A stretch of DNA of 64,000 bases from Haliclystus octoradiatus. Its lineage: Eukaryota; Cnidaria; Staurozoa; Stauromedusae; Haliclystidae. The stretch is from the NCBI GenBank assembly GCA_916610825.1, contig OU744454.1, positions 10,728,922 through 10,792,921 of the forward strand. Reading direction: 5' to 3'. This document shows positions 5,371-43,711 of this stretch, in pieces (position 1 is the stretch's first letter; each line of letters opens with the position of its first letter). The notes under the pieces were generated by a model. The model did not search any database. It had not been told where the DNA came from and worked only from the letters and a program-made list of their open reading frames with translations. The position numbers and the translations under genes are program-made.

Positions 5371-6520
5371 TGTAAGAATAGTTTTTGTCCATTTTATGCA
5401 ACATGCTTTGTATGATATTTATCTTTATAATTTGTTCAGTTTTTAATGTGTATATATTGTTAATTTTTATAAAATGTTGTTGTTTTGTCCAGGTTTTATA
5501 ATAACTTGAAAACAGATATATATATTTATGAAAGAAAATAACAAGAGACAATTAATGGTTCTTATTTAATCTCAACTTATTTCTATTTCTTTTTAATTGT
5601 TAAAGACTCATTGTCATAAAATGTACAATCAGGTATTGTCTGTTTTATAAATAGTGCAAATATTCAAAAGGGTTTTGCTATGTTTAGACAAAGGATTATT
5701 GACACAATCATATTACAAGAGATTAATACATTTTGTTACTCAAATAATCATGTTGAATATTAAGGAAGTCCTGTTTTATCAAATATTTGGATAATAACTT
5801 CTATATTTCCATTTTCTAAACTTTCTTTTAAATCAGCTTTCCATGAAATTAATTTAAAACGTTATTCCGTACTATAAATAGAATCAATCACCATGGCAAC
5901 AGCTATATAATAACGAAATATTTTTGTATGGTTTATTAAACTGTAACCGCTTTTCACATCGCACATAAATAAGTTTTACCCACTTTTATAAGGCGCGTAA
6001 TCACATAATTAAAATCGATAATGCGATTAATCCTCAATCTGTTTCTTATAATGTATTAATAAGTGTATACAACGATATAGTTAAAATCCAAAAAATCCTT
6101 TTATAAATGAGACAGAAAGACATCCTATTAAGTCTATGACAGAGTTCAATAATTCTTTTACAAAACGATAATATGATATATTCAGGATAATTAAAATGTT
6201 ACCAATGTAGTTGCAAAGATACGTGCGTGAAACGTGGATATGTGATACTCAACGTGGATACGTTTCTTCTTTCTCAGAATCTAGCTATTCGTTCTATCAT
6301 AATTTTTACTACCGGTCTTCAAAACGCACATGCTTGTATTTCTGAGCTGCCGCGGGCTTTTCATGAAATTATTTCTCCTTAAGGAACTACATAGCAATAA
6401 TATTCTTCATTAATAGGTTTAGAAAAATATTCATACCCCAATGATATAACTGTACGGTATTGACATCCGAATCGAAATAATTTCAAATCGGATCGTAAAC
6501 TGATTTTATAAACGGATCAA
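5371..6520. other. Intergenic region
   Basis: AT-rich spacer between the 599-aa gene and the PIP5K promoter region. No coding frame, RNA gene or clear repeat was seen. Confidence 0.5.
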
Positions 6521-39800: not shown

Positions 39801-42800
39801 CTATTTTTTCGTGGGCTTCACTGTTTTCTTTGCCTTCTGTTGTGTTGGTTTTTTTGGTGGTGCAGATTTTTTGGTGGTGCTACGCTTGTCATCAATTGTC
39901 TTTTCTTTTGCTGCCTTTCTTCTTTCCACTGCTAATACCGCATTACGTTTCATTGTTTTAGCGTAAGGATTGACCTTTACCATCGCTTCGATATTTTTAA
40001 GAGGATTCTTCTTGAGAACCGCTTTTCTTTTGATAGATCTACACAAAATGAAAACAGTAAAATGGTTAATTAGTTTATTGAATTTGAGGGGATCTGTTAC
40101 CGCAAGCATTGCTTATTTGTATTTCAATGTTGACACTCTGAATGTCCTCAAAAGGCCAGCAGAAATACCCATCTGACTTGACATAAATACAGTTGTATGG
40201 CTACAGGAATTAGTATTCTAAGCTATGGAATGATTCCTAGCAATTTGATTGGTTGTTGAGGGTTCTAAAAAGTCGATGAAGTAATGCGGCACCCTTTGTT
40301 CTAAAATAATGAAATGCTTTATTGCAAATTCCTGCACTCAGGATGTTGTCTAACTCGCATGCGCCTTGATGCCTTGTTTATGCTTCGCGCGCGTCCCCCA
40401 AACAAATTTTGCAATGAAGCACGGCGACACCTGCATGAATCCTTAAATCACAGAGATGAGATCCAAAATTTTGAAAATAGTCTAATATTTAGATTAAATC
40501 AAACAAAATTACTTACATCTTTGGTCGAAGAGCCTTTTGAACCTCATCTGAGTTGATGAGTCGAGTGAGGTCGGCGTTGAGCATTTTTGGTCGAGGTAAA
40601 CTAAAAAGGCAATGTGATACATACAAATCAAATATCAAATCAGACAATCAATAGACATCTTTTCTGAAGACAACAATAAAACTGTTCTACAGTTACACAA
40701 ACAATAATTATCCAAAAAGCTGTCTCTTATACTTGATCATTCATGCTTAGCTGGTTAATATCCTTATGTTCAAAGCTCAGAGAGTACATAGGGGTATAAT
40801 CACGCAACTAGTGTAATTGAGGGCAAGTTCTTTCATCACTGCAAATGAACATCAACACAGAGCAATTTCTTTTTAGGATTCCTTAAACCTTGATTTAAAA
40901 TATTGGCACACTTACTTGTAGTTATTCTTTTCTGTTGACGATTTTTTCCATGTGCCGTATAAGCCATCGAGTTTTTCGAATGCTGATTTAGTCCAGATAC
41001 AGAAACTGCAATGGAAACAACAAGAACCATCAGTTTCCAAAATGACGATAGGGGATGTGCATCAAAATTTTACATGTCAATTTTATTTCATATGAAGAAG
41101 TACTGTGTGAGTTTTGAAATAATCTTTAAGATTTTTGTTTACGAGGGTTCGACATCACATTGCGATTCGATCAATCAGCTTCGTCGACATAACGCGGGAA
41201 ATCATGATGAATTCTTTATTAAATCTCTCGTAACTATAAACCACTAGTAACATAACGATGGAACTTCATATATAGGGTATTTTTGGTCAATGATTTTGAG
41301 TACATTCCTACGTTGGTGCTACTTTTCAAAGCTCAGAGAGTACATTAGGAGTATAATCATCCACTGATGTAATTGAGGGCAAGTTTTATCATCATAGCAA
41401 ATGAAAAGTAGCATTGTGTACAAATTTGACCACATAATAATTCAGTCAATCTAGTTTGATAATTTAAAATCAAGGCGTAGAGCATCAACTCCAATAAAAT
41501 AGTTCAAACATAACTTTGATCGACACTGCATTGGAAAGTTTTCTGAGCACATCCAAACTCACAGTGGAACTAATCATCATAATAATAAATACAACACCTT
41601 GACATTAGCATTTTAGCTTCTTACCGTCCCATATGACCACCAGGGCACAATCTGAGAAGGTTCAAATGATTAACGTTAATGAGTTCGACACCCGGTAAAT
41701 TTCGAAATGCTTGTCGGATGCCAAAGTCTTCTCCGTAAATGACTAAAGGTCCTCTTTTCATGGTATATCTTCTGTTCCTCATTTTACCCTACAGATAAAT
41801 GCAAAACAATCAACATTTCAGAGGGGGCATCTTTGAACTGTATGCAGAAAAGAGAAAACTTATTAAGCACAATCACAGTTGAAGAACTTTGAGGGCTTTC
41901 TTAAAATTTCTATATTCAACCATACTGGTAAACGCGAGCAACGGTTCAACAAATGTGGGATCATGGAATTGGAAGGTTGGAGCAAATTTAGAAGAAAATG
42001 TTGAAATGCCCCAGGTCCAGGATTCCAGGAGAAGGCTGAAGCATTGCTACTCCAGTAATCTGTGTCTAGAATAGTCACCAGGTCTTTTCACAGCAAAAAG
42101 ATATCAGATGAAAATTTGAAAATAGTCTGAAATCTAGGATATCTTGACAAATTTCAATGGGAAAGAGTGATAAATAGAGTTTCACAAAGGTAAAAAATAG
42201 TCTGAAATCCGCTAGAAGTCTGAAAATCTAATGTCTGTAAATTGGAATTTAGATAATGTATCTGATTCTGCAAAACTGCACCACAACATCTTTTGCGGTT
42301 GTCCTTACCTTTCCGGCGCGAATTTTTCGAGAATCTTTGCAGCGTTGAATATCATCGTAAGCATTAATTGCTTTAAGGAGTGCTACTGCAGCGCTGGTTT
42401 TTGTAAGGCTTTCGATGCCATTTGCAATGACAAGGGGTACTTCTGGGATGTTATCAATTTTGTGGCCACGTGACATGACAACAGCAGGGAGTGCGCTTGC
42501 AGCCAAGGCAGAACATACAGCATAACGCCTTTGGTTTTGGTTGATTGGGCTATGCCATTTCCTCCAAACTTTGGTGGGTGCGAACATACGTCCACCACGG
42601 CACATGTTACCGAATGCACCCTGACCAGAGCGATGAGTACCACCACCACGGACACGGGGAATACGAGCAACAGCACGACCAGTACCCCAAGATTCCGCTG
42701 AGGTTTGGTGACCTGCTTCTTTGCTTACGGCATAGGGTTGTCTGCTGTTTTTGGCCATGTTTGAATGGACAAATCCAACAACATCTGGGCGAATTGGGGC

Positions 42801-43711
42801 CTTGAAAACAGCTGGAAGAGTTACTTGTTCGGCTTTGGTACCTTGTTCATTGTATACCGTTACAAACGGACGAGCTGCCTGCCAGGGGTAAAATAAAAAA
42901 CACCTGATAAGAAATAATTTTCAAATTTGGCGAAAAAGGCAGCTTAATTTATTATAATGAAAGCAGTGGGCCTACTCAAGATTACAACAGAAAACCAATG
43001 TCAGCCTAAAAAGGCGGCAAACCTTATCCCTTATCTTCATCAAATTTTGAATTGACTGTCTGACATGTATTGTCCGAATCATAGTTGCGCTGAAACTGTC
43101 ACAATTACTAATTAGTTCAAAGCTCAGAGAGTACATAGGGGTATAATCACTCAACTAGTGTAATTGAGGGCAAGTTCTTTCATCACTGCAATGAACAATC
43201 GGACAAGCCTATCTCAGAAAGAGAGCAAAAGTTAAGTAATTACTTATCTAAATAGTTAGCATAAATGGTATGATAATTACACTTCTACAATTGTTAGGAT
43301 TCAAATCAGAACAACGTTGCGCCACGAAACGAATGTTGCATATATCTGAGAGTGATTCACTTTAGCTGTAGTAAGACGGCAGGGAGGAGAGTTTAGGATC
43401 AGTCGAAAACTGAATACAGTGGGTCTACAGTGAAATCATGTTTCAATATTTAATTGGCTGCAAGGAAACTGCTATCATTATAGCTCAACGTAGAATATTT
43501 ATATGTTTGATACACAACTACGAGGAAGAGTACATTGATGAAATGCTTGCTTATCATATAGAGGCTAGGGCCCTACGCCTGCACTCAATTTGACTTCTTA
43601 GAACGGCTTAAAACATGTTATAATACTGTTTCCACGCCGTTTGGACCACATAAAATGTTACAATAATCATCACACATTGGCTATTTACATAAATATTAAC
43701 AAACATACCAT
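39801..43711 (-). CDS. RPL4: 60S ribosomal protein L4 (uL4), 6 coding exons, 382 aa
   Basis: Core large-subunit protein that lines the exit tunnel with its internal loop. Coding exons: 43709-43711 (only the ATG), 42309-42878, 41625-41788, 40916-41005, 40517-40600, 39801-40038. Total 1149 nt, GT-AG junctions, intact frame. The protein opens [10 protein letters not shown] and carries the uL4 loop at 45-100 ([40 protein letters not shown]), then [49 protein letters not shown] and [13 protein letters not shown]. The Lys-rich tail is shorter than the human one. Introns 1, 3 and 4 each host a C/D snoRNA. The leader is a pyrimidine-rich TOP sequence. Confidence 0.96.
40766..40852 (-). ncRNA. Box C/D snoRNA in RPL4 intron 4 (U18-like)
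   Basis: Minus strand: C box GTGATGA, then AAGAACTTGCCCTCAATTAC, an internal GTGATTA (C'-like), CCCCTATGTACTCT and D box CTGA. The ends ATGTTCA and TGAACAT can pair as terminal stem. The body is almost identical to the copy at 43115-43196. U18 snoRNAs are known in RPL4 introns of vertebrates; assignment to U18 rests on host gene and is inference. Confidence 0.88.
41318..41412 (-). ncRNA. Box C/D snoRNA in RPL4 intron 3, diverged paralogue
   Basis: Minus strand: C box ATGATGA, then AAAACTTGCCCTCAATTACA, internal GGATGATTATA, AATGTACTCT and D box CTGA. The terminal stem GCTACTTTTCA / TGAAAAGTAGC pairs perfectly over 11 bp and differs in sequence from the other two copies, so the pairing, not the sequence, is kept. 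Confidence 0.9.
41938..42062 (-). mobile_element. MITE family 2 fragment in RPL4 intron 2
   Basis: GGAAGGTTGGAGCAAATTTA, GAAGAAAATGTTGAAATGCC and CCAGGATTCCAGGAGAAGGC match parts of the reverse family 2 consensus. Ends are lost. Confidence 0.45.
43115..43196 (-). ncRNA. Box C/D snoRNA in RPL4 intron 1 (U18-like)
   Basis: Minus strand: C box GTGATGA (43180-43186), guide-like AAGAACTTGCCCTCAATTAC, internal GTGATTATACCCCTATGTAC and D box CTGA (43124-43127). The terminal GTTCA / TGAAC pairs. It shares nearly every body base with the intron 4 copy. Confidence 0.9.

Follow-up and report, generated by a model that had tools for sequence, protein, structure and literature searches.

The RPL4 (uL4) gene of the staurozoan Haliclystus octoradiatus very probably carries, within its introns, three paralogous box C/D snoRNAs of the SNORD103 type, predicted to guide methylation of 18S rRNA at G555. 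The window analyzed here, a 64,000 nucleotide stretch of contig C11 (chromosome 9), contains the coding region of this gene on its minus strand at 39801..43711, running from ATG to TAG through six exons and five introns. When joined, the exons form a single open frame of 382 amino acids, and each of the five introns begins with GT and ends with AG. The predicted product resembles animal uL4, with matches to PDB uL4 chains at E-values down to 3.6e-161 and to the Pfam Ribosomal_L4 domain and its C-terminal domain. The three snoRNA copies are likewise on the minus strand, in the sense orientation relative to RPL4. Specifically, copy 1 (43115..43196) lies in intron 1 (43708-42879), copy 2 (41317..41413) in intron 3 (41624-41006) and copy 3 (40766..40852) in intron 4 (40915-40601). 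Introns 2 and 5 contain no copy detectable by alignment and no Rfam match on the strand of the gene at E <= 10. Intron 2 does hold, at 42241-42111, a copy of a short dispersed repeat with at least 41 further matches (77-96% identity) on seven contigs, as counted with 40 of 761 candidates scored. By eye, seven copies of this repeat have inverted CAGACATGAGAATT / AATTCTCATGTCTG-like termini and a length of ~150 bases, and are thus MITE-like, and the ends of the RPL4 copy have decayed. The genome searched comprises 261,861,806 bases in 33 contigs; the available part of the published genome note gives 262 Mb (261,898,343 bp in a figure legend), 33 scaffolds and a mitochondrial sequence of 18.3 kb (PMC9975415). 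On contig C33, of 18,316 bases, the COX1 translations read by eye assign Arg to AGR, Ile to ATA and Trp to TGA, a code that rules against a tunicate. An ARAGORN search of this contig (9,999 bases, bacterial code) returned just two tRNAs, one for Met and one with anticodon TCA, and we take this code and sparse tRNA set to be a cnidarian-like picture.

Box C/D snoRNAs are bound by fibrillarin, NOP56, NOP58 and the 15.5K protein, and all three copies have the anatomy of this class. Near the 5' end each has a C box of the form RTGATGA (RUGAUGA in the RNA), which is GTGATGA in copy 1 (43180..43186), ATGATGA in copy 2 (41395-41389) and GTGATGA in copy 3 (40839-40833). Near the 3' end each has a D box CTGA (CUGA), at 43124..43127, 41336-41333 and 40780-40777, respectively, and the core measured with both boxes included is 63 nt in every copy. 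The original prediction of three box C/D snoRNAs in three RPL4 introns therefore holds for boxes, core and placement alike. The D' box is degenerate, reading ATTA and not CTGA in all three copies (43161..43164 in copy 1, aligned with CUgA of the RF00188 consensus; 41373-41370 in copy 2; 40817-40814 in copy 3). Moving outward from the boxes, there is a short GC step (2 bp, G-C/C-G), then a small internal loop, and then an outer stem that pairs the ends over 5, 12 and 7 bp in copies 1, 2 and 3, the 5 bp taken alone being within chance.

The guide sequence is what ties these RNAs to a putative target. All three copies carry ACTTGCCCTC (43166..43175 in copy 1, 41384-41375 in copy 2 and 40828-40819 in copy 3), which forms 10 perfect Watson-Crick pairs with positions 552-561 of the animal's own 18S rRNA, about the shortest length expected of a box C/D guide. 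Counting from the D' position, the first base is unpaired and pairing begins at position 2, and the fifth base from D' stands opposite 18S G555 (numbering from TACCTGG). This points to G555, the counterpart of human G601, as the predicted methylation site. The accessible part of one source lists SNORD103 for 18S G601 (PMC8881200), and that of a chicken study assigns U103 to 18S G562 through its 5' guide and U62 to A551, 11 bases away (PMC2653536). In Haliclystus 18S, A544 lies 11 bases upstream of the predicted G555, which is the same spacing as in chicken. Complementarity to rRNA upstream of a D or D' box had been proposed as a check and does exist, upstream of the D' position; it lies in 18S instead of the 28S target that had been anticipated.

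As regards chance, 506 of 127,966 17-mers in the window (0.40%) match the same 1137 nt of 18S equally well in one of three registers. Among the 40 C boxes in the window, a 10-base complement of this 1137-nt 18S follows in these three only. The exact C-box-plus-guide pattern occurs at four places in the genome, the three RPL4 copies and one on contig C10, as compared with one place for the backwards control. At the C10 place the core would be 106 long, as measured to the first CTGA, and the best stem is 4 bp; we take this place as a chance match. The 1137 nt query came from one of four genome places with 18S, where by eye the 18S seems to end after ~1.1 kb. A complete rDNA unit was not found in the assembly, and a 28S DNA query against it returned one degenerate piece only: around position 5417 of contig C4:24085000-24094900 there are ~450 bases of degenerate 28S rRNA that are probably a pseudogene piece. 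As a separate observation, the last part of IMGVR_UViG_3300029287_000002, which is filed as viral, is a eukaryote-type 18S 3' end running to GGATCATTA, giving this entry a chimera-like appearance.

The best-scoring Rfam family for each copy is SNORD103/SNORD85 (RF00188), with 27.9 bits for copy 1, 23.3 for copy 2 and 23.0 for copy 3 (E-values of 0.0068, 0.12 and 0.15 over 2.9 kb, or 0.0098, 0.18 and 0.22 over the whole gene), while the scores of other C/D families there range from 17.7 to 20 bits. All three scores are below the 45-bit gathering score of this covariance model, and Rfam run at gathering scores over the whole window gave no matches, so that these genes would escape an annotation run at default settings. 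The RF00188 score alone proves nothing, since a match on contig C1 that lacks the guide scores 28.0 bits and the same search yields sub-cut-off matches in 13 of 14 prokaryote control genomes. Genome-wide there are seven RF00188 matches at E <= 10, and the other four of the seven have no ACTTGCCCTC on either strand within ~100 bases. Rather, it is the guide match and not the Rfam score that decides the proposed SNORD103-type assignment. The RF00188 consensus has ACUUGCCCUCA right before D' at nearly the same distance from C, with one inserted base in the RPL4 copies. Thus the guide to 18S G601 is found in the D' position, as in SNORD103/SNORD85, and the CUGA of the D' box is not.

The original prediction also treated the end stems, said to differ in sequence while each remains self-complementary, as strong evidence of selection on structure. 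The stems GTTCA/TGAAC of intron 1 (5 bp) and ATGTTCA/TGAACAT of intron 4 (7 bp) are as described, and that of intron 3, TGCTACTTTTCA/TGAAAAGTAGCA (41413-41402 with 41328-41317), extends over 12 bp rather than 11. To put chance rates on these lengths, the minus strand of the window was sampled at intervals of three positions (21,277 in all, the copies included) and stems were scored over a 10 x 10 choice of registers. With the register free, a stem of 5 bp or longer is found at 12.8% of window positions, one of 7 bp or longer at 1.3% and one of 12 bp or longer at 0.08%; over the 3,493 positions of the RPL4 region the corresponding rates are 12.0%, 0.9% and 0.26%, this 0.26% being 9 positions that are nine neighbours at the intron 3 copy itself. 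At the registers used by the copies, the window rates for 5, 7 and 12 bp are ~0.19%, 0.02-0.03% and 0.003%, respectively. The 12-bp stem of intron 3 stands out from chance, the 7-bp stem of intron 4 is suggestive, and the 5-bp stem of intron 1 counts only because it is in the same register as its siblings. Two changes between aligned stem pairs are, by eye, strictly compensatory, G-C/T-A at pair 5 and A-T (intron 4) versus C-G (intron 3) at pair 7. Minimum-energy folds contain the outer stem in all three copies. Of 200 shuffles, 199 fold less well than the intron 3 copy taken with its flanks (z -2.84); 39 of 200 shuffles fold equally well for intron 1 (z -0.81) and 177 of 200 for intron 4 (z +1.12). 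The structural claim is thus sound as far as the long intron 3 stem and the two compensatory pairs go and is overstated otherwise, with a covarying stem convincing mainly for intron 3. Note that the outer stem does not directly adjoin the boxes and so may be a feature of the precursor and not of the mature RNA. Outer stems help release some C/D snoRNAs.

The copies in introns 1 and 4 are near-identical (97.6% over 84 columns) and the copy in intron 3 is diverged from each of them (86.6% over 82 columns), much as originally described. When the intron 1 copy is searched as DNA against the whole genome, three places are found at E <= 1, all in RPL4 (1e-42, 1.8e-32 and 5e-17), and no other alignment among introns 1, 3 and 4 reaches E 0.01. 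Because the copies align over ~84 nt only and have unrelated flanks, they look like snoRNA duplications within the gene. This pattern fits a probable duplication inside RPL4 after which the flanks decayed, or a copying of the unit alone. Duplication of snoRNAs within a host gene is described in the available text of the chicken study (PMC2653536), and duplication into sibling introns together with changes of host in that of a sponge study (PMC3412847).

Another host gene in this genome shows a like picture: two U18 (SNORD18) genes lie 864 bases apart on the minus strand of contig C6:18661500-18671400, with C boxes starting at 5577 and 4713. Both carry the guide CGGTCCGTGTTACTGA and sit in two introns, bounded by eye, of a gene that has two RRMs and a glycine-rich tail and whose closest PDB matches are hnRNP A1 and A2/B1. 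The whole-genome U18 covariance search gave 11 matches, two over the cut-off of 41 (42.3 and 41.7 bits) and nine below it; in the 14 prokaryote controls it gave matches below the cut-off in four and over the cut-off in none. A pattern for the U18 guide with one mismatch hit two places in the genome, and no C box lies in the 200 bases upstream of either. The U18 pair is 92.9% identical over 70 nt, its flanks are unaligned, and its end stems are GTACA/TGTAC and TGCA/TGCA, so that divergent end stems on alike snoRNA copies recur in this second gene.

These comparisons bear on whether gene conversion has recently acted between the copies in introns 1 and 4, as opposed to independent purifying selection on each. 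Such an event, which would be compatible with the SNORD103-type assignment, would account for the far closer match of these two copies to each other than to the intron 3 copy, but we consider it rather unlikely. The homology ends at the edges of the snoRNA unit, the U18 pair likewise shows high identity between unaligned flanks, and the 97.6% identity confined to the unit is equally expected if purifying selection followed an older duplication.

A less probable alternative concerns the D-side half of the RNA. Across the three copies, 21 consecutive bases around D are invariant, as are 18 consecutive bases in the guide block. The D-side guide finds no target in 1137 nt of the animal's own 18S and the 456 nt 28S piece; the best match there is a weak one of 8 pairs that involves the intron 3 copy only and starts at position 4. 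The D side is as conserved as the guide block and has no target in the rRNA searched, so the sequence shared by the copies is not attributable to the 18S guide alone. These RNAs could then be box C/D snoRNAs acting mainly through a D-side guide on a 28S or snRNA target, with the 18S match incidental or a relic. The degenerate D' and the invariant run around D are in keeping with this, and the D guide was compared with 456 nt of 28S only. We nonetheless regard this possibility as improbable, because the 18S guide is invariant in all three copies, stands in exact D' register and equals the guide of the best-matching known family. Given the sub-cut-off scores, the degenerate D', the conserved yet targetless D side and a function that is predicted, we call the RPL4 copies SNORD103-like box C/D snoRNAs and not formal RF00188 members. 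The expectation that they would belong to the U18 (SNORD18) family and guide 28S methylation, as invited by vertebrates such as chicken, in which U18 occupies RPL4 introns 2, 5 and 6 while U16 occupies introns 1 and 3 according to the available part of that study (PMC2653536), is refuted to near certainty, as the RPL4 locus has no SNORD18 match at E <= 10, the copies lack the U18 guide, and the genome keeps its two U18 genes in the hnRNP gene.

With the SNORD103-type assignment, the following course of events can be proposed. Splicing of the RPL4 pre-mRNA would leave the snoRNA in an excised or debranched intron, where the C and D boxes would be brought together by the G-C/C-G step and then by the outer stem. 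The outer stem probably aids assembly of the snoRNP proteins and shields the RNA from exonucleases, and trimming of the ends would then yield a small RNA of roughly 70-80 nt. On the 18S rRNA, the 5' guide ACTTGCCCTC would position the methyltransferase at G555. As for the origin of the copies, the snoRNA unit was probably duplicated within RPL4, and the flanks then turned over.

The SNORD103-type trio is ordinary biology, though unlike the snoRNA of vertebrate RPL4. In the literature searched we found no report of this trio in RPL4 or of any Haliclystus snoRNA. It adds a predicted guide for G601-type methylation of 18S in an early-branching animal group, and provides an example of a ribosomal protein gene whose snoRNAs differ from the vertebrate ones. 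In addition, three copies with unrelated flanks amount to a natural experiment, if a small one, on the flanking pairs that must be present for a new intron to release a C/D snoRNA. More speculatively, RPL4 may be a permanent host of box C/D snoRNAs throughout the animals in which the occupant changes, with a SNORD103-type RNA having spread to three of the five introns in the staurozoan and U18 having moved to, or stayed in, the hnRNP A gene. The mobile unit would then be the snoRNA plus outer stem, each new intron making its own stem from its flanks, as in the 12 bp of intron 3; we offer this broader scenario tentatively and think it has a minor chance of being correct.

Among known systems, the closest is SNORD103/SNORD85 (U103, HBII-251, RF00188), with which the RPL4 copies share the guide ACUUGCCCUCA after C and a target at 18S G601 or its counterpart. 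A further likeness is the occurrence of several copies in the introns of one host, as in chicken PUM1 introns 9, 12 and 21 in the available portion of that report (PMC2653536). The differences are the host, which is RPL4 here, a D' of ATTA versus CTGA, scores of 23-28 bits versus a cut-off of 45, and a D-side half unlike the RF00188 consensus. With SNORD18 (U18, RF00093) the likeness is that of a box C/D snoRNA present as copies in several RPL4 introns in chicken, as far as the accessible text goes (PMC2653536); however, its guide and target are other ones, and in Haliclystus it is hosted by the hnRNP A1/A2B1-like gene. Finally, the duplicates in sponge ribosomal protein genes resemble the Haliclystus trio in that one snoRNA has been copied into sibling introns and in that hosts vary by lineage, SNORD24 for example being in RPL5 in sponge and RPL7A in human (PMC3412847, in the part available). 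The sponge case described there is a 94% identical H/ACA pair in two RPL13A introns, whereas that of Haliclystus involves C/D snoRNAs in three introns (PMC3412847).
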